Below, piece after piece: positions 4,865 through 35,787 of a stretch of 39,350 bases of DNA (position 1 is its first letter; the number at the start of each line of letters is the position of its first letter). The translations under genes were made by a program, and so were the position numbers. The stretch is taken from NCBI GenBank assembly GCA_016234955.1, contig JACRNN010000204.1, forward strand, positions 1-39,350, written 5' to 3'. The notes below the pieces were generated by a model, which had not been told where the DNA came from, did no database searches, and worked only from the letters and a program-made list of their open reading frames with translations. The stretch is from Deltaproteobacteria bacterium (lineage in GTDB: Bacteria > Desulfobacterota > GWC2-55-46).

Positions 4865-4941
4865 TGGCGCCCCCGAGACGATTCGAACGTCCGGCACACG
4901 GATTAGGAATCCGTTGCTCTATCCTACTGAGCTACGGGGGC
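4865..4941 (-). tRNA. tRNA-Arg (anticodon CCU), CCA encoded
   Basis: Reverse complement GCCCCCG-TA-GCTC...GAGC-ACGGA-TTCCTAA-TCCGT-...-TTCGAAT-...-CGGGGGC-G-CCA. Acceptor, D, anticodon and T arms are all discernible. Confidence 0.93.
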
Positions 4942-6360: not shown

Positions 6361-7164
6361 CTACATGTACCCGAGCGACCGGAGCTTCTGCATCGTATAT
6401 GCGTCCTCCTTGTCCTGCGCCCTGCCGGCGCGCTCGGAGGTCTTTGTGGTCTTGAGCTCCTCTATTATCTCGTCCACGCTTGAGGCCTGAGACTCGACCG
6501 GGCCGCAGCAGGGCGCGCAACCTATCGACCTGTACCTCTTGCCTTCCTTGCTGAAGTAGAGCTCGGTCACCGGGATATTCTCCCTTTTTATGTACTCCCA
6601 TATGTCGAGCTCGGTCATGTGGAGTATGGGGTGGATTCTGAAGTGGTTGTCCTCTTCGGTGGTGGATTTGAACTGGTCCCATAGCTCGGCCGGCTGGTCC
6701 TCGTAGTTCCATTTGAAGTCCACGTCCCTCGGGGAAAACACCCTCTCCTTCGCCCTTATCCCGTGCTCGTCCCTCCTGATGCCGAGCAGGAGCGCCTTGA
6801 AGCCGCGCCTGGCTATGGTCTGCTTGAGGGCGTTCGTCTTGAGCTCGTTGCAGCAGTCGAGCTTTGCCCCCTTTGAAGGCCCCATGCCGGCGGCCACCTG
6901 GCCCTCGTTGCGCCCGATTATCAGGTCGAGGCCCCACTTCTTCGCGTACTCGTCCCTGAACCTGTACATCTCCGGGAATTTGTAGGTCGTGTCTATATGG
7001 ATGACGGGGAAGGGTATGCGTCCGAAGAACGCCTTCCTGCAGAGCCAGAGGAGCGTCGTCGAGTCCTTGCCCACGGACCAGAGCATGGCGATGTCCCTGA
7101 ACCTGCTGTACGCCTCGCGTATGATGAATATGCTCCTGTTCTCAAGTTCGGTCAGATGGTCCAT
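6361..7164 (-). CDS. cysD: Sulfate adenylyltransferase subunit 2
   Basis: 267 aa. PP-loop-type motif VGKDSTTLLWLCRKAFFG; MTELDIWEYIKRENIPVTELYFSKEGKRYRSIGCAPCCGPV. Confidence 0.93.
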   Translation of the reverse strand: MDHLTELENRSIFIIREAYSRFRDIAMLWSVGKDSTTLLWLCRKAFFGRIPFPVIHIDTTYKFPEMYRFRDEYAKKWGLDLIIGRNEGQVAAGMGPSKGAKLDCCNELKTNALKQTIARRGFKALLLGIRRDEHGIRAKERVFSPRDVDFKWNYEDQPAELWDQFKSTTEEDNHFRIHPILHMTELDIWEYIKRENIPVTELYFSKEGKRYRSIGCAPCCGPVESQASSVDEIIEELKTTKTSERAGRAQDKEDAYTMQKLRSLGYM

Positions 7165-10803: not shown

Positions 10804-11778
10804 TTATTTACGCCCCCCGCGCGCCACACCCCAGAGCGCCCCGAGCCCGATTGACACGGCTCTCAGAAAAAGCAGCGCCGGAGAGACAACGGCCACTGCC
10901 GGGTCCTTGCGTAAGGCCGTTAGAAAAAAAGGCGTTGACAGGGCGAGAAAAAAGCCCCCCGCCAAAACGAATAGGAGCAACCCGTATGCGGGGAAGAGCA
11001 GGCCCACAGGCAGGCACGCCCCAATCATCATGGCGGCTAATATCTGGAACTTGAGCGTCTGGGGGGTGTATGTGTCCTTGAGCATCTTGTCCGGGAACCT
11101 CTTGTACACGACCATCCTCCAGTACCCCCTCCAGAACTTGAGCCTCGCGTACCTCTTGATCGAGTCCGGGTGGTTGAGGTGGCATACCACGGCCCGCGGG
11201 TTGAAGACCATCCTGTGCCCTGAGCTTGAGAGCCTGTAGGACAGCTCCGTATCCTCGTTGTTGGGCGCCGGAAAGCCCGTGTCAAAGCCGCCCGCCACGT
11301 CAAAGACCTCTTTCCTGAAGGCGGCCGAATAGGTATCGACCATGTCGATGGAGGGGGCCGCCTTCAGCATCTCGAACCTCTCCTCGAACTCGATCTGCGA
11401 GAACCGCGCCACTATGCCTGGCTGTAGAGTCCTGTACGCGCCCTTGACCGCCGAGACCGACGGGTCGGCAAAAGGCCTTGCCATCTCCTTTATCCAGTCG
11501 CTCTCCGGGACGCAGTCCGAGTCGGTAAAGAGGATTATCCCGCCCCTTGCCTCCCTCGCCCCCGCGTTCCTCGCGGCGGCCGGACCGAGGTTTCTCTGCC
11601 GGATGCACTTGACGGAGTAGCCCTTGACGATCAGCGGCGTGGAATCCGTGGATCCGTCGTCCACAACGATGACCTCGTAGCGTCCCTTCCCTACGGTCTG
11701 GTCCCGGAGCGAGCCGAGGCACTTATCTATCGTCCTTGCGGCGTTGTACGCCGGAACTATGACGGAAAACTCTATCAT
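10804..11778 (-). CDS. Glycosyltransferase family 2
   Basis: 324 aa. FSVIVPAYNAARTIDKCLGSLRDQTV, EVIVVDDGSTDSTPLI, FTDSDCVPESDW; C-terminal TM segments. Confidence 0.92.
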   Translation of the reverse strand: MIEFSVIVPAYNAARTIDKCLGSLRDQTVGKGRYEVIVVDDGSTDSTPLIVKGYSVKCIRQRNLGPAAARNAGAREARGGIILFTDSDCVPESDWIKEMARPFADPSVSAVKGAYRTLQPGIVARFSQIEFEERFEMLKAAPSIDMVDTYSAAFRKEVFDVAGGFDTGFPAPNNEDTELSYRLSSSGHRMVFNPRAVVCHLNHPDSIKRYARLKFWRGYWRMVVYKRFPDKMLKDTYTPQTLKFQILAAMMIGACLPVGLLFPAYGLLLFVLAGGFFLALSTPFFLTALRKDPAVAVVSPALLFLRAVSIGLGALWGVARGGRK

Positions 11779-11782
11779 CCGC

Positions 11783-13243
11783 TCACGTGCTCTGGAGCCT
11801 TGAGCCGCGTATCAGGTATTTGGCGAAGGTCCGGAGGGACTTAAGCGTCCTTCTTATCTCCCTCGGGTGCGCTATCATCTGGGATAATTTATAGAGGATA
11901 TAGCCCGGCCTCAGATAGAACTCCCTCCTCGCGTCGTCGCAGAACCTGACAAGCTCCTCGGCGCTCAACTCCTCTGTCCTTATGACGGTATTGTGGAGCC
12001 CCTCCTGGGTTATCCATTCGGAGAAGTCCGAGCTCCTTATGAGGCCCCTCTGCCTGTACCAGTCGTACGCCTCGGTGCCGGGGTAAACCATCACCGGGTA
12101 GAACTGGACGGTATCGGGGTTGAGGCCCTTTGCGAGGTCGAGGGTCTGCTTGAGCGTCTGCCTCGTCTCGCCGGGGAGCCCGGCCATGAAGCATCCGTGT
12201 ATGAGCATACCGGCCCTCCTGGCGTTGTCCATGAACCCCTTCATCTCCGCGACCTTCGTCTTCTTCTTCATGTTGTCGAGTATCGTCTGGCTACCGCTCT
12301 CAAAGCCGACGCAAAGGGAGCGGCACCCGGCCTCTCTCATCAGGCGCATGGTGTCGTAATCTATCCCTATCCTCGAATTCGCCGTCCAGGATATCTTTAT
12401 CCCCTTCTTGATTATCAGCTCGGACAGGGCCCTGCACCTCTTCTTGTCCACCGTAAGGGTGTCGTCCTCGAAAAAGACCGCCTTTGCCTGTGGGAAGTTC
12501 TCGACGATGTACTCCATCTCCTCCACCACGTTCTCAACGGACCTCAACCTGTAGCCCCTGCCCATGAGCGTCTGAGGGTAGACGCAGAATGTGCACGGGA
12601 ACGGGCACCCCCTGCTCGTCGTTATCGTCACCATCGGGAATAGCGCGTTCGGGTTGAAGTAGTTCTCTATGCGCAAGAACTTCCTGTAGACCTTGCTCAC
12701 GAACGGCAGTGTGTCGAGGTCGTCGAGGAACGGCCTTTTGGGGGTATTGACGAGGGAGCCGTCCTTGAGGTAGCTTATGCCGGGCACGATTCTAAAGTCC
12801 CCTTTTTTCTCAAGCGCTCCGGCTACCTCCACCACGGTCTGCTCGTACTCGTAGCGCGCAACGGCGTCGATCCTCTTGTCGAGCTTGAGCGTCTCTGCCG
12901 GGAGCGCCGAGACGTGTGTGCCAACGAGGAGCACGAACGCCGACGGGCGCTCGTCCTTGAGGCGGCCTCCCACAGCGACGTCGTTATTGATAGACGGCGT
13001 GGAGGTGTCCATCACTATGAGGCCGGGGTTGAAGACTCTCGCCCTCTTAACGACGTCCTCTACGGTCAATCCGTCGGCCGGCGCGTCTATGAAGTCGACC
13101 TCGAAGCCCTTGTCCATGGCCGCGCCCGCGGCGTAGGCGAGCCACATCGGGAAGTAGAGCGTCCCGCTCTTTGTGACGGCCGGGCTCCTCTGCGGCCGGG
13201 AGAACTTCTTCAGAAACGGCGGGTTCAAAAACAGTATCTTCAT
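11783..13243 (-). CDS. B12-binding-domain-type radical SAM protein
   Basis: 486 aa. N-terminal Rossmann/B12-like region MKILFLNPPF...; radical SAM motif TTSRGCPFPCTFCVYPQ (CxxxCxxC). Confidence 0.88.
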   Translation of the reverse strand: MKILFLNPPFLKKFSRPQRSPAVTKSGTLYFPMWLAYAAGAAMDKGFEVDFIDAPADGLTVEDVVKRARVFNPGLIVMDTSTPSINNDVAVGGRLKDERPSAFVLLVGTHVSALPAETLKLDKRIDAVARYEYEQTVVEVAGALEKKGDFRIVPGISYLKDGSLVNTPKRPFLDDLDTLPFVSKVYRKFLRIENYFNPNALFPMVTITTSRGCPFPCTFCVYPQTLMGRGYRLRSVENVVEEMEYIVENFPQAKAVFFEDDTLTVDKKRCRALSELIIKKGIKISWTANSRIGIDYDTMRLMREAGCRSLCVGFESGSQTILDNMKKKTKVAEMKGFMDNARRAGMLIHGCFMAGLPGETRQTLKQTLDLAKGLNPDTVQFYPVMVYPGTEAYDWYRQRGLIRSSDFSEWITQEGLHNTVIRTEELSAEELVRFCDDARREFYLRPGYILYKLSQMIAHPREIRRTLKSLRTFAKYLIRGSRLQST

Positions 13244-14484
13244 CAGACCACTTCCCTCGTTATTTTATCGTACTGCCTGATCTGCTCCGCCATGAAGCCG
13301 AGCTCACCCTTGAATTCTATGGCCTTGGTCGGGCACGCAAGGAAGCAGTACTGGCATCCTATGCACCCGTTGTCCCTGTCCTCGATCGTCTGCGGGAGCT
13401 TGAGCTCCACGGGGCAGTAGTCCGCGCACCTGGTGCACCCCTTCTCGCAGAGCTCTCTCTTCCACTTGAACCCCTCGAACCTCATCTCGTCCTTTATGAA
13501 GTTGTCCTGCCGGAGCCCCGTTAAAAAGAGCATCTTCCCGAACGCCTCCGTGGAGCAGAGGTAGTTGAAGGCCGCGGTGTTCCGCACGGCGAGGAAGTAC
13601 TTCTGGCGCCTGGGGCTGTGGATGAAGGAGGCGAAGGCGTTGGCTATCGGCTCCTTGAACTTCTTCTTGACGCCTTCGAGGTCGAGCGCGTCGGCGAACT
13701 CGCGGTGGCGAGCGGTCAGCAGGCCATGGTCTTCGGCGGCCTTGAGGGTGCGCACCTTCCTGTAATCGAAGTCCGCGATCCTCGCGCAGACGAGGTCTAT
13801 GAGATATGGGTCGACCCCGAATATGACGACCCCGGTGCGAAGCGGAGTGCCCCTCGTAGGCCCGAGCCCCTCCATGGCGATAAGGCCGTCGACGATGTGG
13901 AGGTGCGGCTTAATCCTCTTATTTATGTTAAGTATGTTCCTGGCGAGGGACCCGTGGGTCTTTTTCTTGTTCTCCTGGCCTACAAGGCACCCCATCATGT
14001 TCTTGAGGCAGACCGTCATGCCGGCCTCGAAGTGGGTCTTGAGCTTCGGCATGTTTATGAAAAAATCGGCCTCCACGCACTCCTTCGCCACCGAGGCCTT
14101 GACGCCGTCCTCGAAATCGACGCTTACGGTCTCGGAGTAGTTGAGGTCGGCTATCTTGACACCGTAATGCCTGGCGAGCCTGTCGTAGGAGAGCCTTGAG
14201 ATGACGCTTATGCCGTTCCTGTAAAAGCCGCTGTTGGTGCCCTCGGCCACCGTGATGTCGGAATAGCCGTAGCCCTTGAGCGCCTTTATGACCGCGGCCA
14301 CGAGCCTCAAATCCGTGGTGTTGCCTGTGAGCGCGTTCATGTTGCTGTTCATGTTCGGCTTTATGAGTATCCGCGCCGACCTCGATGCGGGCAGTATGTC
14401 GCGGTACCTTTCGAGCGTATCCGCAACTGCCTTTACTATGTCCTTGATCGAGTATGCCTTTACTATATCAAGCCTTGGACCCAT
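13243..14484 (-). CDS. DUF362 domain protein with C-terminal 4Fe-4S ferredoxin motifs (ORF extends to 14508)
   Basis: ARILIKPNMNSNMN, FFINMPKLKTHFEAGMTVCLKNMMGCL; CEKGCTRCADYCPVELKL and CIGCQYCFLACP. Start MGPRLDIVKAYS preferred over the upstream ATG. Confidence 0.82.
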   Translation of the reverse strand: MGPRLDIVKAYSIKDIVKAVADTLERYRDILPASRSARILIKPNMNSNMNALTGNTTDLRLVAAVIKALKGYGYSDITVAEGTNSGFYRNGISVISRLSYDRLARHYGVKIADLNYSETVSVDFEDGVKASVAKECVEADFFINMPKLKTHFEAGMTVCLKNMMGCLVGQENKKKTHGSLARNILNINKRIKPHLHIVDGLIAMEGLGPTRGTPLRTGVVIFGVDPYLIDLVCARIADFDYRKVRTLKAAEDHGLLTARHREFADALDLEGVKKKFKEPIANAFASFIHSPRRQKYFLAVRNTAAFNYLCSTEAFGKMLFLTGLRQDNFIKDEMRFEGFKWKRELCEKGCTRCADYCPVELKLPQTIEDRDNGCIGCQYCFLACPTKAIEFKGELGFMAEQIRQYDKITREVV

Positions 14485-15643
14485 TGTTCCTTCTCCCGGT
14501 CGCCTCAAGCAGGTCCGCTACCGCGTCAAATACGTCGTCTACGCCGATACTCTCCATGCACTCATTGTAAGGGGTGTGCCTGCAGACGTCCTCGTCGCAG
14601 GAGTGTCTGCACGGGAAGTCCTTTTCAACGACCCTGTGCGCGTTGCCGCAGGGCCCGGTCTCGTTGCTCTTGGACGGGCCGAATATGGCTACGGTCGGGG
14701 TCTTCCGAGCCGAGGCCAGATGGAGCGGCGCGCTGTCGTTCGTTACGAATACGTCCAGCCTGCCGATTACGGCGGCGCTCGTCCTGATGTCGGTCTTCCC
14801 GGCGAGGCTTACCCCCTTGCGGGACATCCCGCCCAATATCTCCTCTATTAGAGAGGCCTCCTGCGCGGAACCGGTGAAATAGACCCGCGCCCCTAATTCC
14901 CTCACAAGACGGTCTGCGAGGAGCGCGAACTTTTCCGTTCCCCAGCACTTGAGTCCCTTCCTCCCGCCGGGGTGTATGCCGGCGGCAAGTGGTGTGCTTA
15001 TGCCGCCGATACCGAGCGCCTCAATCGCCTTTTTCACTTCACTGCCAGAGGCCGTAAGCCCCCAGTCCAGCTTATCGACGGGAGCGCCTAAAAACCTTAC
15101 TATGTCGAGGTGGTACTCCACCTTGTGCTTGACCTCCTTGAACGGCACCACATGGGTAAGGAGAAACCCTCCGCCTCCCACGTTGTAGCCGACCCTGTAC
15201 CTCGACCTGCTCGGATAGGCGATGAAGAGGATGTCCCTTATATCCCCCCTGGCCTCTATGACGAGGTCGTACCTCTTTTTCCTGAGCGCCTTGAGGAAGC
15301 CGAGGTATTCCCTCAATCCTCCGCCCGGATAGAACCAGAAGGCGTCGTACGCGATCACCGAGTCGACGCAGGGGTTGTCCTTTAAGAGGTCCTTTGCACC
15401 GGTTGAGGTCAGGAAGGTAATCCTGCCTTCGGGGAATAGCTCCCGCAGGGGCCTCAATATTGGCAGGGTCATGACGACGTCGCCGATATAGGCGGTGCGC
15501 ACGACGAGTATCTCGCGTACGCCCTTTGCTTCTATCCTTCCATTGCCTTTAAGGATATTGAGCGGGGACCAGAGAATGCGGCCTATGGCGTCCGCGACCC
15601 TTGTGGCGATCCTCTTCTTCCTGTTGATTATCTTGTAGAACAC
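14468..15643 (-). CDS. Glycosyltransferase family 9 (ADP-heptose:LPS heptosyltransferase-like)
   Basis: 391 aa. EILVVRTAYIGDVVMTLPILRPLRELFPEGRITFLTS, FVTNDSAPLHLASA, VAIFGPSKSNETGPCGN. Confidence 0.9.
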   Translation of the reverse strand: MFYKIINRKKRIATRVADAIGRILWSPLNILKGNGRIEAKGVREILVVRTAYIGDVVMTLPILRPLRELFPEGRITFLTSTGAKDLLKDNPCVDSVIAYDAFWFYPGGGLREYLGFLKALRKKRYDLVIEARGDIRDILFIAYPSRSRYRVGYNVGGGGFLLTHVVPFKEVKHKVEYHLDIVRFLGAPVDKLDWGLTASGSEVKKAIEALGIGGISTPLAAGIHPGGRKGLKCWGTEKFALLADRLVRELGARVYFTGSAQEASLIEEILGGMSRKGVSLAGKTDIRTSAAVIGRLDVFVTNDSAPLHLASARKTPTVAIFGPSKSNETGPCGNAHRVVEKDFPCRHSCDEDVCRHTPYNECMESIGVDDVFDAVADLLEATGRRNNGSKA

Positions 15644-15748
15644 GGCCTTTTACGCTCGTCTCCCCTGTTGCAGGACCGCAACCCGCCCCTGGGGCTTTGG
15701 CACATCATACGAATATAATATGACATCCTGCGCGGTTTTGCCATATTT

Positions 15749-16636
15749 TTAGAGTTTTTTGCCATATTCACAGGCCTTTTCCGCCACCTCGATGAAGTAC
15801 TTTATCATCTGCCCCTTGTGGTTGAGCCCCTCCGGCACCCAGAGGTACCTCTCAGGCGAGGTAGCGTCCATCACAATATTTTCAGGGTTGTCGTTGCACC
15901 GCGTCCAGGGGGACTTGCCGGAGGCGGCGTTATTTATAAGCTCGATAGCATGCCCCTTGTAGCCGCCCTGGACATGGTCCGCGGCCGCCTGGTACCTGAA
16001 GTAATGGCAAGGCAGGCCCTTTATGAATGTGACGGCCTCCCTTTCGTCCCAGAAGTCATCCCTTGAGGACGGGAACTCCTTTAACGGCCTGTGCGTGTCG
16101 TTCTTCGTGGTGTTGAACCTGTTCGAGGGCCCCTCCCAGTCAAATACGTACTTTACCTGTTTCATCGGATAGCGGGAGAGCGCCCCGGTTGTGATGATGA
16201 TGCCTATGGAAAAAGAGAGTATGCCTATGCAACTGGAGTCCGCCTCCGGCAGCCCTGAGAGGTAATCCACCACGGTCGCGAGCTCCCTCTGATGGATCGG
16301 GCCCCAGTAGTCCTCCTTCCCTCCTGACCTGCCCCTGCCCGATGGATCGTAATGGAGGACAATAAAACCGAATGAAGCGAGGTCCTCGGCCCTCAGGGCC
16401 CCGCCCTTTGCCCCGCCTTTGTCGTAGTCCGTCCCTGGGCTGTTGGCGCCGGGGACGAAGACGACGGACGGATATCTGCCCTTAACCACAGGGGCATGGA
16501 CGTGGGCGTAGAGCCTGTACCCGGCGGGCGAGTCTATCCACGCCTCTCTGTATGACGTGTCTAACGGGCTTCTGCCAAGGAAGACGGAGAGGTCGGGGCC
16601 GCTGCTGCGCCCGAAGAATCTTGAAAATATGGACAT
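15749..16636 (-). CDS. Alpha/beta hydrolase
   Basis: 295 aa. PSVVFVPGANSPGTDYDKGG, FGFIVLHYDPSGRGRSGGKEDYW, nucleophile-elbow-like CIGILSFSIGIII. Confidence 0.75.
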   Translation of the reverse strand: MSIFSRFFGRSSGPDLSVFLGRSPLDTSYREAWIDSPAGYRLYAHVHAPVVKGRYPSVVFVPGANSPGTDYDKGGAKGGALRAEDLASFGFIVLHYDPSGRGRSGGKEDYWGPIHQRELATVVDYLSGLPEADSSCIGILSFSIGIIITTGALSRYPMKQVKYVFDWEGPSNRFNTTKNDTHRPLKEFPSSRDDFWDEREAVTFIKGLPCHYFRYQAAADHVQGGYKGHAIELINNAASGKSPWTRCNDNPENIVMDATSPERYLWVPEGLNHKGQMIKYFIEVAEKACEYGKKL

Positions 16637-16646
16637 ATCTTTATTT

Positions 16647-16836
16647 AGGGTGCCTCCAAAAATCAGATATTTTTCCGAGGTCGAGGCGGGGTGAATGAAA
16701 CCACCCCGGGCTTAAAGCCCCATGAGGTTTCAGAACGCTGAAATAAAAAAGCGGAGCATATATGCTAATATGTGTCCATTTTTATTTTCGCCCCAACAAA
16801 GAGATCGGGAAAAAGAGCAATTTTTAGAGGCACCCT
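16647..16836. mobile_element. MITE-like palindromic element (~190 bp)
   Basis: Terminal inverted repeats AGGGTGCCTC(C/T)AAAAAT, 16/17 match (16647-16663 / 16820-16836). Nested internal inverted repeats TGAAACC/GGTTTCA around GGGCTTAAAGCCC, and AAATAAAAA/TTTTTATTT around the AGCATATATGCT palindrome. Confidence 0.65.
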
Positions 16837-17759
16837 TCTTCCACTATGAGCATCCCCGGCGAATACCTGTCGAGAAAATGCATGTAGCCCGGGTGCATGG
16901 ATACGTAGCGCTCCAGCCTTGCAACGAATTGGCGCGTGGAATCCGCGGCCTTTTCCTCACCCTCAAGCTTGGAGGTTATAGGCCGTTCTATTATTATTTT
17001 ATACGGTTTTTTCCCGCCAGGCACGATAAAAAGAGGGATGAGCGCCGAGCCGTTCTTCTGCGCCAGCAGCGCCGGCCCGACGGGGAACATGACCCGGTTT
17101 CCGAGGAACTCAAAGGCCTTGTGCCTGCCCACGCGCGTCCCGGTGCCGCTGCCGTCGCCGGTTATCATTATGACGCCGTTGTCGTTGAGCCATTTGAACG
17201 CGTTCCTCAAAAACGAATCCGCCTTGATTATCTCGGCCGGCATCATCGACTCGTACCTGAGCCTCAGCCTGAAGGCGACGTTCCTGCCTGTCCAGCTCAA
17301 ACCCTCGTCCGATGGCAGCCCTATCTGCTTCATCCTGTAGCCCAGACGCGCGAGCGCCACAAGCGGCAGGTGTACCGGGCCGAAGTGGCCGTGGACAAGG
17401 ACGACCCCCCTGCCCTCCTTGAGCGCGTTGTCGAGGTTTTCGAGCCCCTCTATATCCACGAGCCTCTTGACGCGCCTTGCGTCGAGCCTGGGGAATATGA
17501 ATATGAGGAGGCGGTCGATGTAGTGGTTCCTGAAGTATTCCCTCGCGGCTTTGCCCCGGTCGGTGGAGACCCCGCGCATGCGCGCGAGATTTTTGCCGAG
17601 GAGTTCCTTCTTGCCGCCGGAAAACGCGTAGTGGAGGTCGCCTAAGAGCCTCATTATGGCGATCCCCAGGGAGACCGGCGACGCTAATATTATCCACCGG
17701 AGCGGGAACCATACGATGAGCCTCAGTATGTCCCGCCGTATGGACTCCCTCACCTCCAT
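16824..17759 (-). CDS. LpxL/HtrB-like lysophospholipid/lipid A acyltransferase
   Basis: 311 aa. DIEGLENLDNALKEGRGVVLVHGHFGPVHLPLVALARLGYRMKQIG, VIMITGDGSGTGTRVGRHKAFEFLGNRVMFPVGPALLAQKNGSALIPLFI. Confidence 0.82.
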   Translation of the reverse strand: MEVRESIRRDILRLIVWFPLRWIILASPVSLGIAIMRLLGDLHYAFSGGKKELLGKNLARMRGVSTDRGKAAREYFRNHYIDRLLIFIFPRLDARRVKRLVDIEGLENLDNALKEGRGVVLVHGHFGPVHLPLVALARLGYRMKQIGLPSDEGLSWTGRNVAFRLRLRYESMMPAEIIKADSFLRNAFKWLNDNGVIMITGDGSGTGTRVGRHKAFEFLGNRVMFPVGPALLAQKNGSALIPLFIVPGGKKPYKIIIERPITSKLEGEEKAADSTRQFVARLERYVSMHPGYMHFLDRYSPGMLIVEEGCL

Positions 17760-17810
17760 GTTCCATCCACCCTGTGTCCGGTTTTGGCCGAGCCCTTATC
17801 CCGCATGGCG

Positions 17811-19472: not shown

Positions 19473-19539
19473 GAGTTGCCCTGCCCTGTCTGGATGCGGA
19501 GATATGAAGCCTACGGGGATTTCAGAATCCACTGGACTG

Positions 19540-19618
19540 TTATCAGTCATCGGCTATCTGTTACCGGTTATCTGTTCTCGGTAAAAACACGTCTTTATCC
19601 TTCACCGATAACTGATAA
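19540..19618. repeat. Inverted repeat TTATCAGTCATCGG / CCGATAACTGATAA (13/14) in a TTATC/CGG-rich simple-repeat tract
   Basis: Direct reading: 19540-19553 and 19605-19618. Confidence 0.55.
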
Positions 19619-19670
19619 CCGAGTATGAGAAGATTAATAAACCCGTGGCGGCTTAAGAACGCCAAAAAAC

Positions 19671-20945
19671 CTACTTGCCCTTGAGTCTCATCGCCAGGTT
19701 CATGAACCTCTCGATATAGGCGGTCCCTGGGTTCGTGTAATACCTCGGGTAGAGGAGGTCGTCGCCCTTTTCCACCATCCCCTCCTTCAAAGCTATCTCG
19801 TAGAGCTTCGTGTGCGGCTCTATCCTCATCGAGTTGAACTCGAAGTGGACTCTCCTGCCCATCCCGGCCCGCGCCTTGAGGCAGAACCCGGCCATGGAGA
19901 GGAAGGAGGAGAGCGTCTGGCCCGGTGGGTTCTTGAAGAAGTTATAGCAGACCTCGAACCCTCCGGTCTCCTTCAATACGGCGTAGGCCTTCTCTATGTC
20001 GTCCCTGGTGATGTTTTTTCCAAGGGCCTTCAAGACCGCGTCGGAAAAGCCGTCGGGCGAGAGTATCACCTTCCGGCAGCCCGCCTCCCCGCACAGCTCG
20101 ACGAACTCCCTTGTAAGTCCGCTCTCGCTGAACCAGGCCGACCACCGGGGCTTTATGCCGCGCCTGAGTATCTCCCGGCAAATCGCCTCAGCGTGCTTCA
20201 AGGGTATGTTGAAGACGGAATCGACGAACGTAAAGCTGTCGATGCCGTACTTGGCGCCGAGCGTCTCTATCTCGTCCACTATCTTCTCCGGCGCGCGGAA
20301 CCTGTATCTCCTGCCGTTCAAAAACCCGTATATGCAGTAAACGCACTTGAGCGCGCACCCGCGTTTTGTCTCGATGCCCACGGCCTCCGGGACGTCTTTA
20401 TAGGCGGCCACGGGGTTCAAGTCCCTGTCGGGCGGCGGTAGCCTTTTGAGGTCAGCCGGCTCCGAAGGTCCGGTGAACCTGACCTTACCGTCCTTCCTGT
20501 AGTAGACCCCTTTCACCTTTTCAGGCGCGCCGAGGTTGTCGAGCAGGTCCGCTATTATAAATTCGCCTTCGAGATAGACACCGTAGTCTATCCTCGGCTC
20601 GTCCTCCATTATCACGCCCGCGAACATGGAGAACCCGGACCCCCCGGCGATGATCTTCGCGTCCGTGACGCTCCGTATCTCGCCCAGCATCTTCTTGAAG
20701 AACTCGTAGTAGAATACCACCCGCCTCTTGTTCGTGGAGTCGATGTTCCTGAGCGACACGCCCACGGCGTCGGGGCGAAAGTCCCTTATGACGCGCTTTA
20801 GCTCCTCGAACGGGTTTTCATGGACGTTCGGGTCGAACCCCCGCGCCTCGTGTTTGCCGAGGCCGGGGCGGATGCACGCGAGCCCGAGAGGGAATACCGG
20901 CGGCTCGCCCCCGCCCAGATAGGACTGTACCAGCAGTATCTTCAT
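19671..20945 (-). CDS. B12-binding-domain-type radical SAM protein
   Basis: 424 aa. MKILLVQSYLGGGEPPVFPLGLACI; radical SAM motif TKRGCALKCVYCIYGFLNGRRYRFR. Confidence 0.86.
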   Translation of the reverse strand: MKILLVQSYLGGGEPPVFPLGLACIRPGLGKHEARGFDPNVHENPFEELKRVIRDFRPDAVGVSLRNIDSTNKRRVVFYYEFFKKMLGEIRSVTDAKIIAGGSGFSMFAGVIMEDEPRIDYGVYLEGEFIIADLLDNLGAPEKVKGVYYRKDGKVRFTGPSEPADLKRLPPPDRDLNPVAAYKDVPEAVGIETKRGCALKCVYCIYGFLNGRRYRFRAPEKIVDEIETLGAKYGIDSFTFVDSVFNIPLKHAEAICREILRRGIKPRWSAWFSESGLTREFVELCGEAGCRKVILSPDGFSDAVLKALGKNITRDDIEKAYAVLKETGGFEVCYNFFKNPPGQTLSSFLSMAGFCLKARAGMGRRVHFEFNSMRIEPHTKLYEIALKEGMVEKGDDLLYPRYYTNPGTAYIERFMNLAMRLKGK

Positions 20946-22447
20946 GCGGGGGATCTGCCGGAGAGCCTCTTGGCGAGCCTGAAGGAGGTCTGGAGGCCCG
21001 CGTAAAGGGACTTGAAAAACGGCCTGAGCGGAGCGCTATTCAGGACGTCCACGACAGGGGACGACACAAGGAGCTTCAGGAGCGGGCTTGGGAACCTGCC
21101 GTTCCTCGATAGCGTTATGAGGAGATTGAGGTAGTTCTGGCTCCGCATCGTGTAGCTCTTCTCGTATATCTCCTTCTTCTCGTCCCTCACCAATCCGTCC
21201 CTCTTCGCCTGCTCGTAGAGCTTGGTGCCGGGGTAAAGGACGAGGGAGAACGGCTGGAGGTGGAAGGGCTTAGGTATCTCGGCGATGAGCCTCAGGCTCT
21301 CTATCCTGTCCTCGTCGGTCTCGTAAGGCACGTCGAGGATGAAGTCGTAGCTCGGTGGGACCATCCTGTCCTTGTACCGGTTTATGATGCGGAAGGCCTT
21401 CATGAGCCTCTCGTTGTCCATCTGCCTGCGGTTGAAGAGCTCCTGTATCCTCCTGCTCCCGCTCTCCACCCCCATCTGCAGGTATATGAGCCCGGCGTCC
21501 ACGAGCATGTCCATCTTCTCCTCGGTGACGGTCATGGGGGACGCCAGACAGCTGAACGGGAGCCCGATCTTCTCCTTGTAGGCAACGCAGAACTCCTCGA
21601 TGCTCTTCTTGTTGCGGGCGAAAAAGGCGTCGTCCGAGATCCATATGAAGCCGACGTACGGCAGGTTCTTCTTCACCCATAGTATCTCGTCCATCACGTG
21701 GGCCGTGGACCTCCAGCGCAGGTAGTTCTCGTTGTTGTAGAGGCCCTTCAATGTGTCGTTTATGCAGTAGGTGCACTTGTGCGGGCACCCGCGGCCGGTC
21801 ATCGTCTGGTACCCGGTCTTGTTCAGGTATCCGGAGACCGTGCCGGCCTCCATGCGGCCCTTAAGGAGCGCGAAGGTCAGGGGCTCAAGCCTGCCCTCAT
21901 GCATTATGTGGTGGTCTTCGCAACTGTAGTCCGGCCTCGGGTATATGTCGAGGTCGTGCGGGAGGCTCCGCGTCGGATTCCTTACCACCCTTGCGCCAGA
22001 CTTCATCCAGAGGTTCTTCACGTCATGGTAGGGCCTTTTCTCCTCCATCCTCTGCGCGAGCTCCAGCATGGCCTCCTCGCCGTCCCCCACGCACACGATG
22101 TCGGCATGGTCGAGGGACTCCTCGGGCCTGATGGTCGGGTGGACGCCGCCCCAGACTACAGGCGCCTTTATCCCGCCCGATTTGAGCTTTTCCGTAATCT
22201 GCACCGCGCCATCGTAAAAATTGGTCATGAGGGTAATTCCAATGATGTCGGAGGCCCGGACGAGCGAAATCAGCGAATCGAGCGCCGAGTCCGCGTACCT
22301 CTTGACGCCGTAGACGAGGTTGTCCCCGTAAGGGTCGGGTATGAATATCAGCTGCGTCGTGTGCCCGTTGGCCTTGAGATAGGCGGAGATCGTGCGTATA
22401 CCGAACGCGGTCACGTCCGGGTATGGGGATATAAGCGTTATCTTCAT
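20942..22447 (-). CDS. B12-binding-domain-type radical SAM protein (tandem paralog 2)
   Basis: Starts MKITLISPYPDVTAFGIRTISAYLKANGH; VVWGGVHPTIRPEESLDHADIVCVGDGEEAMLELAQR; TGRGCPHKCTYCIND. Start refined to 22447, overlapping the upstream stop (ATGA). Confidence 0.88.
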   Translation of the reverse strand: MKITLISPYPDVTAFGIRTISAYLKANGHTTQLIFIPDPYGDNLVYGVKRYADSALDSLISLVRASDIIGITLMTNFYDGAVQITEKLKSGGIKAPVVWGGVHPTIRPEESLDHADIVCVGDGEEAMLELAQRMEEKRPYHDVKNLWMKSGARVVRNPTRSLPHDLDIYPRPDYSCEDHHIMHEGRLEPLTFALLKGRMEAGTVSGYLNKTGYQTMTGRGCPHKCTYCINDTLKGLYNNENYLRWRSTAHVMDEILWVKKNLPYVGFIWISDDAFFARNKKSIEEFCVAYKEKIGLPFSCLASPMTVTEEKMDMLVDAGLIYLQMGVESGSRRIQELFNRRQMDNERLMKAFRIINRYKDRMVPPSYDFILDVPYETDEDRIESLRLIAEIPKPFHLQPFSLVLYPGTKLYEQAKRDGLVRDEKKEIYEKSYTMRSQNYLNLLITLSRNGRFPSPLLKLLVSSPVVDVLNSAPLRPFFKSLYAGLQTSFRLAKRLSGRSPA

Positions 22448-24045
22448 CTCTTTCTGCCGTCCACTATCGGGTCGCTCATCCTCATCTTGTTCAGGAACAG
22501 CCTTATCCTCTCCCAGTCGTGGCTCCAGATGACCTTTATGCCCTTGAATATGAACCTGATGAATTCGCCGACCCTGCAACCGATGTTGTAGAGGAAGGAG
22601 AGGTTCATCTTTGAGAGGAAGTTCACAACCGGCTCCCTTGCGAGAATATTGAGGATAGTCCTCGGAAAATGCTGGAACGTAAGGAGGTATATGAGAAAAT
22701 TAGGGTATGAGCGGTTGGGCGACACGTAGAACGGCTTCCTGTATATGTCGGAGGCGTCGTCCTTGATAAGCCCCTCTTTCTTGGCCTTGTGGTAGAGAAA
22801 CGTCTGCGGGAAAAATACCAGGCTCGATATGCAAAGCCCGTAGGGCTTGGGCAGTTGCATCAGAAGCCTCACCGTGTCCATCGTATCCTCATCCGTCTCC
22901 CAGGGGTTATCCAGGATGATGTGGTAGTCCGGCGGGAATATCCTCGGCACGTACCTGGAGATGGTCCTGGCGGCCTCCACTATCTTCTCGTTCGACTCGG
23001 TCCTGTTGTACAACTGTTTGATGCGCGAGCTTCCGGTCTGCACGCCCATCTCGACATAGACCATGCCGGCGTTCACGAGGTGCTCCATCTTCCTCTCGGA
23101 GATGGTGGTCGGGCTCGCCTGGGTATAAAAGGGCAGCCCTATCCGCTCCTTATAGAGCCTGGAGAACTCCTCTATCTCATGCACCGGTCTGGCGAAAAAC
23201 GTATCGTCGAAGAATTGAACGGCCCCGATGAACGGGAACCTCCTCTTGATGTCCTCGAGCTCTGTTATGAAGTTCTCCACGCTCCTGGCGCGGAAGTACT
23301 TCAACCCGACCTTCTCGTACATCTCCTTCTGATTGCTTATATTGCAATAGGAGCACTTGTGCGGGCATCCGCGGTCCGTCATGGTCCTGTAGGCTATCCG
23401 GAGCTTGCCGTCCGGGTGCGGGAGCCTCGGGAGCACATTCCGGAAGGCCTCCGCATCGAGCGGGACGATCCTGTTGGTCTTCAGGTCGAGGAGGTAGTGG
23501 TCCTTGAGGCTGAAGTCGAAGAACGGCAGCTTGTCGAGCTCGATGAACGAATCCCTCAGCCTGTTTCTTATGATACCGCCGTCCTTCTTGAACCACATCC
23601 CCTTGACGTCTGAAAAATCCCCGTTCCTCTCCTTCCGTTGCGCAAGCTCCAGGAGCGACTCCTCGCCCTCGCCTATGCAGACGGCGTCGGCGTATTTGAG
23701 GGCCTGCTCCGGGCTCGTGGTCGGGTGTATCCCGCCCCAGACGACGATGGAAGAGAGGCTCTTCTTCAGGGCCTCCGTAACCTGGATGGCCCTGTCGAAA
23801 TAGTTGGACATGAAGGAGACGCCGACTATGTCGGAGCCCTTGCAGAGCTCCACTATACGCTCAAGGACGGAGGCGTCATAGGCGTAGACGAAGTCCGCGC
23901 CCTTTTTAAGCTTGCCGATGCTTCCCGGAAGGAATATCAGACGGGTATCGAAGCCGTTGCTCCTCAGATACGCGGAGAGGCTCCTTACGCCGAAGGCGCT
24001 TATATCCGGCGGCGTCGGCGTTATTATGGTTATTTTAGTCTTCAT
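22444..24045 (-). CDS. B12-binding-domain-type radical SAM protein (tandem paralog 1)
   Basis: Starts MKTKITIITPTPPDISAFGVRSLSAYLRSNGF; VVWGGIHPTTSPEQALKYADAVCIGEGEESLLELAQR; TDRGCPHKCSYCNIS. Start refined to 24045. Confidence 0.88.
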   Translation of the reverse strand: MKTKITIITPTPPDISAFGVRSLSAYLRSNGFDTRLIFLPGSIGKLKKGADFVYAYDASVLERIVELCKGSDIVGVSFMSNYFDRAIQVTEALKKSLSSIVVWGGIHPTTSPEQALKYADAVCIGEGEESLLELAQRKERNGDFSDVKGMWFKKDGGIIRNRLRDSFIELDKLPFFDFSLKDHYLLDLKTNRIVPLDAEAFRNVLPRLPHPDGKLRIAYRTMTDRGCPHKCSYCNISNQKEMYEKVGLKYFRARSVENFITELEDIKRRFPFIGAVQFFDDTFFARPVHEIEEFSRLYKERIGLPFYTQASPTTISERKMEHLVNAGMVYVEMGVQTGSSRIKQLYNRTESNEKIVEAARTISRYVPRIFPPDYHIILDNPWETDEDTMDTVRLLMQLPKPYGLCISSLVFFPQTFLYHKAKKEGLIKDDASDIYRKPFYVSPNRSYPNFLIYLLTFQHFPRTILNILAREPVVNFLSKMNLSFLYNIGCRVGEFIRFIFKGIKVIWSHDWERIRLFLNKMRMSDPIVDGRKR

Positions 24046-25024
24046 CTCTTTTGCTCTCTCCCGCGTTGCGATGCCGAGACTTGAAAAACGGCGCGTCCCC
24101 GTGCTCTTCCATGAACCTCCTGAACGCGAGGAAGCCGAGGTAGTGGCCCGGGTGCCTGCGGACGTACTCCTCAAGCCTTTTGACGAAGGCCGCGGTCCGC
24201 CTCTCCACGAAGCCCTCCCCGGTTTCATCCCCCATCGGCGGCTCGATGACGAGCCTGTGCCTGCCGCCCCCCTCCCTCACTATGAAGGCGGGCAGGACCG
24301 CGCAGCGCGTTCGTTCGGCTATCTCCATGGCGCCTGTGGAGAAGAACGCCATCCCGCCTAAAAACTCCGCCGCGACCCTTGTCTTGCCTCCACCTCCGTC
24401 CATGGCGATGCCGAGGACCTCGTTCCTTCTAAGGCACAGAAAGACCTCTTTCATGGCGCCGAATACGTTTATGTGCGTAACCGGCAGAGACTGCTCGTGC
24501 CTCCACCTTATCTCGAGCCCGCGCTTCCACATGGCGCCTTTTTCCCCGGGGAGTTTCTCCTCCCATACAGTGGGGGGCGCGCTTACCTGGCTCATCTTGA
24601 ACCCCCTGTAGCCTATGGCGGGCATGATCATCTGGTTCGAGCCGAAGTGGGCGAAGACGAGCATGGCCCCCTTGCCGCGCCCGAGGGCCGCGTCGAGATT
24701 CTCAAGCCCTTCGCACTCGACGAAATCGGCGATATTCCCGCTGTTGAGCGCCGGATATACCAGGACCTCGAGGTCCTTGACCGCGTTGACTGCAAAGGCG
24801 TCGCGCACGGCGTGCCGCATCTTTTCCCCGTCGCGGCCCATGAACCTTGAGTACTCCTCTTCCAGCGCTCTCCTCCTGTTGCGCGCCATAAGGCGGAGGG
24901 CCGAGCCCAGGAGGCCCGCCAGAAAATATATGTATCGCGCCGGCATCTTCCGGACAAAAACCCTGAACGGATACCAGTATACCCACAGGAGCGCGTTTTT
25001 CACGGCACTGCCTATCAATCCCAT
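24035..25024 (-). CDS. LpxL/HtrB-like acyltransferase (second paralog)
   Basis: 329 aa. CEGLENLDAALGRGKGAMLVFAHFGSNQMIMPAIGYRGFKMSQVSAPP, VLGIAMDGGGGKTRVAAEFLGGMAFFSTGAMEIAERTRCAVLPAFIVREGG. Confidence 0.82.
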   Translation of the reverse strand: MGLIGSAVKNALLWVYWYPFRVFVRKMPARYIYFLAGLLGSALRLMARNRRRALEEEYSRFMGRDGEKMRHAVRDAFAVNAVKDLEVLVYPALNSGNIADFVECEGLENLDAALGRGKGAMLVFAHFGSNQMIMPAIGYRGFKMSQVSAPPTVWEEKLPGEKGAMWKRGLEIRWRHEQSLPVTHINVFGAMKEVFLCLRRNEVLGIAMDGGGGKTRVAAEFLGGMAFFSTGAMEIAERTRCAVLPAFIVREGGGRHRLVIEPPMGDETGEGFVERRTAAFVKRLEEYVRRHPGHYLGFLAFRRFMEEHGDAPFFKSRHRNAGESKRDED

Positions 25025-25035
25025 AGCGGACCCCG

Positions 25036-26646
25036 CTACTCCATGTAACCGAGGTTCTTGAGCTTTTCCGCTATATCTTTTTCCTGCTCCTCCGACAGTT
25101 TTTTAGCCTCGGTCTCATCCGTGGCCGCGTCGTCGGTGTAACGTACCGGTTTACGGGCAAGGTATTCCGGCTCCAGCGCCTGTTCCAGCGCCGCTCCGTC
25201 CATATACGCCGGGACGGCCATATCCATAAGATGGAGTATGGTGGGCGTAACGTCTATTATCCTCGGGTTGTCCAGGACAACGCCCTTTCTTACCGCCGGG
25301 CCTTTGAGCAGGAAGATGCCGTGCCTCTCATGCCTGCCGGACCATCTGTGCGACAGGAAGAGAGAGTCCTCGAAGGCCTTCCTGAAAAAAAGGAACTCGT
25401 TCGGGGCGATTATCTGGTACCCGGGAGAGCAGATGAGAGTCAGGTCCGGCGCCTTATGGGCGTGCTCCCCGGAGTATATATCTTCCCTCCTGTAGACCTC
25501 TGCAATAACCCTTTTCCCGGCCCCATCCCTTATCTCGCATAGCTCTCCGATGAGCCTGCTTGTAACGTCCAGGTACTGCGCGGGCGAAAGGTCGGGGTTT
25601 ATATAGATCGCCCCGGCAACGCCTTCGGAAAAGGCGGTCGTCTTTTCAAAATCGATAAGCGAGTAAAAGACGTTGATGGACTCATCCCCGCCTGGCTTTG
25701 TCCTGCCCCATCCGGCGTTGGGAAGCACCTGCCTGAGGGACCTGGCCAGGCCGCGCATTATCCTGGAACCATTTTTCGCCCTCAACGCCGAGGCCATATC
25801 CTGCTTCAACGTGAGATAGCCCTTTTTAAGGAGCCAGTTATTGAGAAAGAACGCCGCATTCAGCGGACCGGAGCCGTGGTCCGACACCATCATCACGTTC
25901 GTATCCGGCCCGGCCTTCTCAATGATCCTGCCGAGCGCGGCGTCGAGCCTTATGTACACCTCCGCGACAGCGCCGCCGTATCTGGAGTGCTCGGGGTGCC
26001 GGGGGTCGAGGTACTTCCAGAAGAAGTGCTGGACGCGGTCCGTGGCCATGAAGACGGCGAAAAAGAAGTCCCACGCCTTGCGCTCAATCAGATACAGGCA
26101 GACCTTCTCCCTGTAATCCATCATCTCTACTATGCGCTTCAGGTATGCTCCGGGGTCGCTCTCCTGCCTGCACTCAATCATGTATTTGCCGAAGAGGCCC
26201 TCTATCTCGGCCTTGAGCCCCGGCGGGGTGATGAAGTCGTCCGCGCCGTCAGGCGTGAACATCCCTGAGATGCTAAACCCGTCGAACTCATCCGGCGGAT
26301 AGGTCAACGGGACGTTCATCACGCCCGACTTCCTGCCCTTGTCGCTCAGGATGGACCAGACCGGCCTTACCGCGCGCATGGTCGCGTTGGAGAAGACGAT
26401 CCTCTTCTGCTCGGGCCTGTAGACCATGGCATCGTAGATGGCGTGCTTGCCGGGGTTGACCCCGGTGGATATGGAGGTCCAGGCTACCGGCGTCAGCGGT
26501 GGTATCGTGGATTCAAGCCTGCCCCAGGCGCCATCCCGCATCAGACTTGCCACGTTGGGCATCAATCCCCTGTCCACAAGGGGCTTGATGATGTCGAAGG
26601 TGGCCCCGTCCCAGCCCACCACTATGGTCCTTGTCCTCTCCATCAT
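25036..26646 (-). CDS. Alkaline-phosphatase-superfamily / type I phosphodiesterase-nucleotide pyrophosphatase-like protein
   Basis: 536 aa. IVVGWDGATFDIIKPLVDRGLMPNVASLM, PPLTPVAWTSISTGVNPGKHAIYD, VMMVSDHGSGPL, HRWSGRHERHGIFLLKGP, C-terminal KLKNLGYME. Confidence 0.88.
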   Translation of the reverse strand: MMERTRTIVVGWDGATFDIIKPLVDRGLMPNVASLMRDGAWGRLESTIPPLTPVAWTSISTGVNPGKHAIYDAMVYRPEQKRIVFSNATMRAVRPVWSILSDKGRKSGVMNVPLTYPPDEFDGFSISGMFTPDGADDFITPPGLKAEIEGLFGKYMIECRQESDPGAYLKRIVEMMDYREKVCLYLIERKAWDFFFAVFMATDRVQHFFWKYLDPRHPEHSRYGGAVAEVYIRLDAALGRIIEKAGPDTNVMMVSDHGSGPLNAAFFLNNWLLKKGYLTLKQDMASALRAKNGSRIMRGLARSLRQVLPNAGWGRTKPGGDESINVFYSLIDFEKTTAFSEGVAGAIYINPDLSPAQYLDVTSRLIGELCEIRDGAGKRVIAEVYRREDIYSGEHAHKAPDLTLICSPGYQIIAPNEFLFFRKAFEDSLFLSHRWSGRHERHGIFLLKGPAVRKGVVLDNPRIIDVTPTILHLMDMAVPAYMDGAALEQALEPEYLARKPVRYTDDAATDETEAKKLSEEQEKDIAEKLKNLGYME

Positions 26647-28073
26647 GCCTTATTCCTGTTGAAACCTTTTATAGCGCCTTTGAAAAAAGAGAAGGCGTCC
26701 GGCGGCAGCGCGTCGGTCAGCGACAGCACGCCGAAGTACGCTATGGACCCGAAGCCCACCGCGGCCGGGATGGAGTACCGCTTGAGCCAGATCGTGCCGG
26801 CGGCCCCCGTCGCGCCGGCTAACAGCGTCTTTGACAAAATCTTGTCGAGAACGAGCGGAAGCCCGTTCCTGACGACGAAATAGATGGAAAATAAGAACAG
26901 GAGGCAGTACGAAAAAAGGGCGATGTACGCGGCCGCCATGTAACCGTAATCCGGTATCAGGAACAGGGCGGCCAGAAAGTTAATCGCCAGGGCCGTCCCG
27001 CCGTAATAGACGCTGTACTTCTGCTTGTTCATCACTATCAGCATGGTGTTGAGCAGTATGTCCATGGAAAGCGGGACCGCCGCCCACGCAACCACCATGA
27101 ACGTGGCGGCTGACTCCGAATACTTGCTGCCGAAAACGACGTCTATTATCTCCCCCGCGAACAGGCAGAGGAATATCGAAAGGAAGACGCTCAGTATGAA
27201 TATGTACCTGAAGGTCTTATCATAGACCGCCGCCACCCTGGCCGGGTCGCTTTTCATGAGCCTTGAGAGCACGGGCAGGAGGGCCGCGACCAGGGCGAAC
27301 GGCAACACCTGTATCTGCATCACCATGTTGTGCGGTATCTGGAACAACGCCACTTCCTTCGCGCTCCCCAGCCATTTCAACATCAAGACGTCGATCCTGA
27401 AAAGATTTTGATAGAAAAATATGCCGAGCCCTATGACCGAGGAGTGCTTGAGCAGGGCCCAGAACACCTTTCCGTCTATCGTAAAGGACGGGCGCACGAA
27501 CCTGTATGACACGATGACGGCCGCCACGGACAACTGGACGGCGTTGGCGGCGGCCGTCGCTATCAGGAGCCATAAAAGGCCCATGTCAAGGTATATGACC
27601 ACGGCCACGCCGGCGGACATGACGACGCAGGATACGATCGTTATCAAAGGCTCGTAGAGCATCTTCTCGAACGCCTGAAAGACGATCCTGAAGAGCATGC
27701 CGAAGGTAAGGAAGGTCTCGGAGAATATCGCCACGACGATGCCGGCCGCCATCAGCTTTGAGGGCCTCAGGAACGCCAGGAATATCAGCATCGCGGCAAA
27801 GGCAATGGAGGCAAGCGCCCCCCTGAGCACCAGGGCCGAGCCGAGATAGACGTGCGCATTGGCCCTGTCCATGGCTATATCGCGGATAGTGACCTGCTGA
27901 ATGCCGAAGTACGACAAGGCCATCACGGACGATACCAGCGCTACGATGTAGGCGTAGTCCCCGTACAGTTCGACGGAGAGATACCTCGCCGCCGCGATGA
28001 TGATGAAAGAGGAAGCGGCGATCTGAATCCCCCTTGCCATCAGTATGAATATCGAGTTCTTTATTACGCTCAT
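26643..28073 (-). CDS. Polysaccharide/oligosaccharide flippase (Wzx-like, MOP superfamily)
   Basis: 476 aa polytopic protein. SVIKNSIFILMARGIQIAASSFIIIAAARYLSVELYGDYAYIVALVSSV; 4-bp ATGA-type overlap with the downstream gene. Confidence 0.88.
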   Translation of the reverse strand: MSVIKNSIFILMARGIQIAASSFIIIAAARYLSVELYGDYAYIVALVSSVMALSYFGIQQVTIRDIAMDRANAHVYLGSALVLRGALASIAFAAMLIFLAFLRPSKLMAAGIVVAIFSETFLTFGMLFRIVFQAFEKMLYEPLITIVSCVVMSAGVAVVIYLDMGLLWLLIATAAANAVQLSVAAVIVSYRFVRPSFTIDGKVFWALLKHSSVIGLGIFFYQNLFRIDVLMLKWLGSAKEVALFQIPHNMVMQIQVLPFALVAALLPVLSRLMKSDPARVAAVYDKTFRYIFILSVFLSIFLCLFAGEIIDVVFGSKYSESAATFMVVAWAAVPLSMDILLNTMLIVMNKQKYSVYYGGTALAINFLAALFLIPDYGYMAAAYIALFSYCLLFLFSIYFVVRNGLPLVLDKILSKTLLAGATGAAGTIWLKRYSIPAAVGFGSIAYFGVLSLTDALPPDAFSFFKGAIKGFNRNKA

Positions 28074-35755: not shown

Positions 35756-35787
35756 ATGTACGCACCCTTTCATGCCGCAACGCGCTT

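Follow-up and report, generated by a model that had tools for sequence, protein, structure and literature searches.

A conserved radical SAM and acyltransferase gene block predicted to act in surface glycan synthesis within a Wzx/Wzy locus

We analyzed a stretch of 39,350 nucleotides (the window, taken at its full length) from a Deltaproteobacteria bacterium, in which genes for cobalamin-type radical S-adenosylmethionine (SAM) proteins, acyltransferases and phosphodiesterases form a block inside a polysaccharide locus. This block is probably (we put the probability near 0.6) the chemical core of one conserved, mostly anaerobic pathway for a surface glycan that carries acyl groups, or for an acylated glycolipid linked to a glycan, with export through the surrounding Wzx, Wzy, Wza and Wzc proteins. 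That the genes serve a single pathway is well supported, and their membership, order, co-inheritance and active-site motifs are directly established. The window is one entire contig (C174) of a metagenome-assembled genome (MAG) of 2.08 Mb in 299 contigs, with a completeness of 79% and a contamination of 5.6%.

Architecture and co-conservation of the locus

The conserved unit splits into a head, a variable middle and a tail. The head consists of the initiating transferase, an AMP-forming ligase (AMP-ligase), an inosose-type dehydrogenase, Wza and Wzc. The middle, which varies between genomes, consists of Wzy, Wzx, the phosphodiesterase PDE1, the acyltransferase LpxL1, radical SAM proteins 1 to 3 (rSAM1 to rSAM3), the acyltransferase LpxL2, an alpha/beta hydrolase and a sulfatase-fold protein. 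The tail consists of the glycosyltransferase GT9, a DUF362 protein, rSAM4, the glycosyltransferase GT2, a molybdopterin enzyme of the molybdenum or tungsten (Mo/W) type and the phosphodiesterase PDE3, followed in the window's family by CysD and CysN. Conservation is strongest in the tail, from GT9 to the molybdopterin enzyme, and throughout the head.

Presence/absence profiles were compiled over 59 genomes of the window's class, its own included. DUF362 and the Mo/W enzyme occur in the identical 11 genomes (Fisher 3.6e-12 by genome and 4.3e-7 by genus, in tests that ignore shared ancestry), and the dehydrogenase in those 11 and one more (12/59). Orthologs of rSAM2 are found in nine of the 59, all within the 11 DUF362 carriers and none elsewhere.

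The gene order is repeated in another genome of the same genus, at 82-96% identity. An rSAM2 alignment scanned over 84,980 species genomes, together with synteny tables based on hidden Markov models, located the block in groundwater Deltaproteobacteria-labelled MAGs, Nitrospirota, Nitrospinaceae, Planctomycetota-labelled MAGs, Syntrophaceae, Desulfarculales, Desulfobacteraceae, Kiritimatiellia, Marichromatium gracile and Solidesulfovibrio. Near-complete versions are present in Nitrospinota and in the cultured M. gracile. The fullest distant copy (L059; Nitrospinaceae, Nitrospinota) reads Wzc-Wzy-propeller-PDE1-LpxL1-rSAM2-rSAM3-LpxL2-alpha/beta hydrolase-GT9-DUF362-rSAM4-GT2. In M. gracile the tail is joined straight to the head (L233: rSAM4-GT2-Mo/W enzyme-transferase-AMP-ligase-dehydrogenase), and a nearby locus carries Wzx-PDE1-LpxL1-rSAM1-2-3-GT9-LpxL2 (L234). 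Orthologous order is also found in Desulfobacteraceae (L065), Nitrospirota (L050, L052) and Syntrophaceae (L061). The check proposed in a preliminary description of this DNA was run: the tandem radical SAM pair, the HX4Q acyltransferase and the alkaline phosphatase (AP) superfamily gene do recur together, in Wzx/Wza/Wzc loci of several phyla. A chance neighbourhood is excluded by this repeated order, within the genus as well as in Nitrospinota and Desulfobacteraceae, and by the coinciding profiles.

A more distant rSAM2-like group (about 48% identity; lake, Myxococcota and related MAGs) was considered as a further version of the block and rejected, as rSAM2 stands alone there; six of its genomes hold a DUF362 relative at 35-38%. 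In G001, a genome of the window's genus, the Wzx and DUF362 genes are both split and lack residues (L026 4170-5469 and 17812-19016), through assembly error or decay.

Gene content of the window

Gene families were assigned from the open reading frame listing and from Pfam and NCBIfam scans. The mechanical listing over-extends rSAM1 and rSAM2, whose starts are set by ortholog conservation at 24045 and 22447; the start of DUF362 was placed by conservation at 14484. The features are listed below in the order of the minus strand, with scores in bits.

38534..39349, minus: initiating sugar-phosphate transferase (Bac_transf, WbaP/exopolysaccharide type); PF02397, 232.7 bits; reaches the contig end, incomplete
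36945..38456, minus: AMP-forming acyl/aryl-CoA ligase (ANL family), head; PF00501, 261.6 bits; member of the head module across phyla
35788..36954, minus: zinc dehydrogenase of the scyllo-inosose 3-dehydrogenase (IolM) type, head; NF041097, 521.9 bits, cut-off 450
34985..35812, minus: Wza-like export lipoprotein; Poly_export and SLBB domains
32759..34954, minus: Wzc-like chain-length regulator with AAA domain; Wzz, GNVR, AAA_31
31996..32733, minus: CpsB/CapC-type phosphatase; PF19567, 182.3 bits
30479..32017, minus: Wzy-type polymerase (Wzy_C); PF04932, 34.0 bits, barely over the 31.7 cut-off; 10 predicted transmembrane segments
28149..30326, minus: secreted 725-aa beta-propeller-like protein between Wzy and Wzx; no Pfam family, weak propeller-repeat matches
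26643..28073, minus: Wzx-type flippase; PF01943, 65.2 bits
25036..26646, minus: PDE1, phosphodiesterase of the nucleotide pyrophosphatase/phosphodiesterase (NPP) type, AP superfamily; PF01663, 147.7 bits
24035..25024, minus: LpxL1, LpxL-fold acyltransferase with HX4Q; PF03279, 77.1 bits
22444..24045, minus: rSAM1, B12-binding, corrected start; PF04055, PF02310; own clade 99/99
20942..22447, minus: rSAM2, B12-binding, corrected start; PF04055, PF02310; orthologs in relatives and other phyla
19671..20945, minus: rSAM3, B12-binding; own clade 100/100; nearest models BzaD and TIGR04072
17811..19550, minus: sulfatase-fold protein, probable lipoprotein; PF00884, 153.6 bits; APWTLPS, not CxPxR
16824..17759, minus: LpxL2, LpxL-fold acyltransferase with HX4H; PF03279, 67.5 bits
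15749..16636, minus: alpha/beta hydrolase; weak Pfam S15 match, 21 bits against a cut-off of 23; orthologs in 8 compared loci
14468..15643, minus: GT9 glycosyltransferase (heptosyltransferase-like), start of the tail; PF01075, 108.9 bits
13243..14484, minus: DUF362 protein with two 4Fe-4S motifs, corrected start; PF04015, 158.1 bits; modelled fold LarA-like; co-inherited
11783..13243, minus: rSAM4, HpnJ sister clade in trees; TIGR03471, 423.5 bits, cut-off 577.6
10804..11778, minus: GT2 glycosyltransferase with two C-terminal membrane segments; PF00535, 119.5 bits
8578..10692, minus: molybdopterin (Mo/W) enzyme, 704 aa, acetylene-hydratase-like, between GT2 and PDE3; Asp13 replaced by His
7204..8565, minus: PDE3, second NPP-type phosphodiesterase; PF01663, 138.7 bits; kept after the molybdopterin enzyme
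6361..7164, minus: CysD (ATP sulfurylase small subunit); conserved neighbour in the window's family
5059..6282, minus: CysN-like GTPase; conserved neighbour in the window's family

The families named in the preliminary description all lie where it had placed them: from Wzx (26643-28073) to GT2 (10804-11778), the minus strand carries PDE1, LpxL1, the four B12-binding radical SAM proteins, the sulfatase-fold protein, LpxL2, the alpha/beta hydrolase, GT9 and the DUF362-ferredoxin, and its third AP-superfamily gene beyond GT2 is PDE3 (7204-8565). The overlapping junctions that it reported are half of the total, as 6 of the 12 from Wzx to GT2 overlap and the other six are gaps of 4-187 bp, with the tightest packing from Wzx to rSAM3 and from GT9 to GT2. 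Its borders proved too narrow, the molybdopterin enzyme (8578-10692) and the AMP-ligase and dehydrogenase (35788-38456) being part of the conserved unit as well.

An initiating phosphoglycosyltransferase, Wzx, Wzy, Wza and Wzc stand together in the window, the set that marks a Wzx/Wzy-dependent locus, and the locus is predicted to make and export a polymer. The AMP-ligase and the dehydrogenase are located between the initiating transferase and Wza, and the transferase adjoins them in relatives too. The dehydrogenase scores above the cut-off of the scyllo-inosose 3-dehydrogenase equivalog NF041097, and this activity is predicted for it.

In L059 (Nitrospinaceae), an ortholog of the propeller-like protein holds the same position next to Wzy and PDE1. 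CysD and CysN follow PDE3 at full length in five genomes of three other genera (identity of about 85-88% and 66-77%, respectively); in G001 they are fused through an internal deletion (L027 5001-5297). No APS (adenosine 5'-phosphosulfate) kinase or sulfotransferase was seen alongside them, and their role in the pathway is uncertain. The low-coordinate end of the locus is flanked by a tRNA-Arg(CCT) at 4865-4941, and a XerC-like tyrosine recombinase lies at 1740-2654, about 2.2 kb off.

Radical SAM proteins

All four radical SAM proteins have the CxxxCxxC motif and a B12-binding domain, which in rSAM3 is slightly under the Pfam cut-off (30.1 vs 32.1). A phmmer search of PDB with rSAM1 gave no match. 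The nearest models of rSAM3 are BzaD (TIGR04385, 295 bits, cut-off 450) and the ladderane-associated TIGR04072 (239.8 bits, cut-off 360); ladderane synthesis was rejected, as rSAM3 falls short of the model cut-offs.

The HpnJ model TIGR03471 matches rSAM4 over its full length, but at 423.5 bits against a cut-off of 577.6, and the block orthologs score about 350-440 bits. In the trees, the block rSAM4 proteins form one clade of 20 rows (100/98) from at least five phyla, sister to the true HpnJ, which is a separate clade (100/100) with the block proteins outside it. Each of the rSAM2 carriers tested has an HpnJ-like copy (26/26), and true HpnJ above the cut-off is present in only 3/26; those three also have hopene cyclase and additional HpnJ-like copies. 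Hopene cyclase at cut-off level is found in only 7/26 carriers, and none was found in the window's genome (G000) or in carriers of the same family. HpnJ produces a cyclitol ether from lipid-bound glucosamine (PMC12583986). Ring formation or rearrangement is what the known cobalamin radical SAM enzymes without methylating activity carry out (PMC13142503). In view of these two chemistries, rSAM4 may reasonably be expected to rearrange a sugar.

The genomes of genus g6 (G006, G015, G021, G024, G027) have an HpnJ-like radical SAM protein of 398-408 bits without a DUF362 partner, possibly a further HpnJ-related subfamily.

Partner enzymes of the radical SAM proteins

The structural model of the DUF362 protein (pLDDT, the predicted local distance difference test, 87) has 17 significant fold matches in PDB, and 17/17 are LarA-family nickel-pincer racemases, at E 5e-6 and with a modest global TM-score of 0.31-0.40. 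The DUF362 and LarA families belong to a common Pfam clan, CL0471 (PMC11770544). A nickel-pincer role is possible for the protein, judging from the modelled fold; LarC occurs in 55/59 genomes and is not discriminating. In Solidesulfovibrio/Desulfovibrio (L073, L075, L077), a second, shorter DUF362 without the ferredoxin part is located between the AMP-ligase and rSAM2.

The closest solved relative of the Mo/W enzyme is acetylene hydratase (2E7Z), matched over the full length at 391 bits vs 288 for the next. In 10/10 sequences (the window and nine orthologs, Marichromatium included), His stands at the position of the catalytic Asp13 of the CxxCD motif, the metal-ligand Cys (Cys141) is kept in LAQCFIPR, and Ile142 is replaced by Phe; the window's own motif reads CRVCHGGC. 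Asp13 is specific to the acetylene hydratase subfamily (PMC12096430).

PDE1 keeps the metal and nucleophile motifs, and its model (pLDDT 77) matches ENPP and bacterial NPP enzymes with E values down to 1.8e-17. In both PDE1 and PDE3 the catalytic domain begins at the very start and no signal peptide is present, which suggests that they work in the cytoplasm on activated precursors. At its nucleophile site the sulfatase-fold protein has APWTLPS instead of the C/S-x-P-x-R formylglycine motif of type I sulfatases.

The two block acyltransferases match PF03279 at 77.1 bits (LpxL1) and 67.5 bits (LpxL2), and at 74 and 67 bits in the genome-wide comparison of LpxL-family proteins. The HX4Q of LpxL1 is kept as HFG(A/S)NQ in close orthologs, while LpxL2 has HX4H in the window and HX4Q in some orthologs; the canonical HX4D/E is absent from both, unlike the in-genome lipid A enzyme, the one canonical LpxL found elsewhere in the genome (C118, L201; 199 bits, HFGNWE, that is HX4E). 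The block acyltransferases are additional to this single canonical LpxL, and just one LpxL-family protein is present in each of the block-free relatives G002, G005, G006, G007 and G013. Without the acidic residue, the acyl chemistry may be changed, or another residue may act as the partner.

Proposed pathway and alternative explanations

We favour as the product an acylated glycan, exported by Wzx/Wzy, that contains a radical-rearranged or deoxygenated residue; this product, the catalytic steps and their order, and the acyl groups on the exported polymer are what we infer. The WbaP-type transferase would start a lipid-linked unit, to which GT9 and GT2 would add sugars on the cytoplasmic face. 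One sugar may be turned into a rearranged, carbocyclic or deoxygenated residue by rSAM4, the DUF362-ferredoxin, the acetylene-hydratase-like Mo/W enzyme and the inosose-type dehydrogenase. The AMP-ligase and the two HX4Q/H acyltransferases would attach acyl groups, which rSAM1 to rSAM3 may modify, and the cytoplasmic NPP-type phosphodiesterases would trim activated precursors. Wzx would then flip the unit, Wzy polymerise it, and Wza and Wzc export the chain.

The preliminary description had proposed a pathway for an acylated, radical-SAM-modified lipid or glycan carrier. This proposal is partly supported. The idea of one pathway tied to export is well supported by co-conservation, and nothing specific speaks for a carrier. 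Modification by radical SAM enzymes fits the nearest relatives, HpnJ and the ladderane and BzaD models, with lipid or glycan as a candidate substrate, and acylation follows the family assignment of the acyltransferases.

Several observations weigh against one exported product. The profile tests take no account of shared ancestry, rSAM2 is missing from the head-and-tail carriers G003 and G012, and rSAM2-like genes are solitary in more distant genomes. No close DUF362 was found in M. gracile, so this protein may be replaceable. In Solidesulfovibrio, no Wzx/Wzy accompanies a sub-block (LpxL1, AMP-ligase, small DUF362, rSAM2-3, LpxL2, rSAM4, GT2) within the stretch that was read, and some of the chemistry may therefore be independent of this export route. 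Because of this sub-block, the main rival is that the locus serves two pathways: one for an ordinary Wzx/Wzy polysaccharide, the other for a membrane lipid or glycolipid that the radical SAM proteins, acyltransferases and AMP-ligase make separately and that is not attached to the polymer. It would also suit genus g10, where head/middle and tail are about 40 kb apart on one contig, or on separate contigs. However, the tail genes GT2 and Mo enzyme directly adjoin head genes in M. gracile (L233), head and tail flank a single locus in G003, G012 and the window, and the dehydrogenase and the tail match in presence/absence; we regard two pathways as unlikely, if worth serious consideration.

The remaining explanations have far lower odds. 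If the block modified lipid A or the core of lipopolysaccharide, its LpxL-like acyltransferases, heptosyltransferase-like GT9 and AP-superfamily transferases would form a variant of that machinery, as their memberships in PF03279, PF01075 and PF00884 and the weak EptA/LtaS-like score of the sulfatase-fold protein would allow; this is quite improbable given the separate canonical HX4E LpxL (C118, 199 bits), the lower scores and Gln or His of the block proteins, and the exactly one LpxL-family protein in the block-free relatives. A hopanoid pathway with rSAM4 as HpnJ, to which the whole-length TIGR03471 match (423.5 bits) could point, was rejected as highly implausible, with rSAM4 under the 577.6 cut-off and in its own clade, hopene cyclase absent from the window's genome and from carriers of its family, and further HpnJ-like copies in the genomes with true HpnJ. 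The source being a 299-contig MAG, 79% complete and 5.6% contaminated, a coincidental neighbourhood or a binning artefact might be suspected; the same order in a second same-genus genome (82-96% identity) and in other phyla, with the profiles, leads us to reject it as next to impossible.

Within the favoured single pathway, a bolder and doubtful proposal is a new class of surface glycans or glycolipids, in which a carbocyclic or ring-rearranged, dehydroxylated sugar would be formed from a lipid-linked sugar by the HpnJ-sister radical SAM protein, the LarA-clan Fe-S protein and the acetylene-hydratase-type Mo/W enzyme, then acylated and exported by Wzx/Wzy. Across several phyla, oxygen-sensitive metalloenzymes are inherited together and tied to polysaccharide export, a sign of envelope chemistry not yet described. 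The DUF362 proteins and the non-methylating cobalamin radical SAM enzymes, both poorly understood, gain a concrete setting from it, and an acetylene hydratase relative may have a role outside catabolism. Cultured carriers exist (Marichromatium gracile DSM 203 and Solidesulfovibrio species), which makes the pathway directly testable.

Comparison with known systems

Our literature searches of open-licence papers found no described cluster of this kind, and its parts resemble several known systems. As in HpnI-HpnK-HpnJ, which synthesize the hopanoid cyclitol ether, rSAM4, sister of HpnJ, pairs with a membrane GT2; the locus differs in that no HpnK-type gene was seen in it, the genome has no hopene cyclase, and the partners are DUF362 and the Mo/W enzyme instead. 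The ladderane-associated radical SAM protein and BzaD are the nearest models of rSAM3, yet the fatty-acid synthase cluster is absent from this locus. DUF362 resembles the LarA nickel-pincer superfamily in predicted fold and clan, and adds two 4Fe-4S motifs. The Mo/W enzyme has the metal-ligand Cys in common with acetylene hydratase and the catechol dehydroxylases of the bis-molybdopterin guanine dinucleotide family; it differs in having His and Phe in place of Asp13 and Ile142, and in standing in a glycan-synthesis context without partner subunits. The acyltransferases share PF03279 with the LpxL/PatA type, their nearest models being lauroyl and phosphatidylinositol-mannoside acyltransferases, but they have HX4Q/HX4H rather than HX4D/E and score far under the model cut-offs. 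The initiating transferase, Wzx, Wzy, Wza, Wzc and CpsB-type phosphatase are the same as in Wzx/Wzy-dependent exopolysaccharide or capsule loci; what sets this locus apart from an ordinary one is the co-inherited set of four cobalamin-type radical SAM proteins, non-canonical LpxL-like acyltransferases, DUF362-ferredoxin, Mo/W enzyme, AMP-ligase and inosose-type dehydrogenase.

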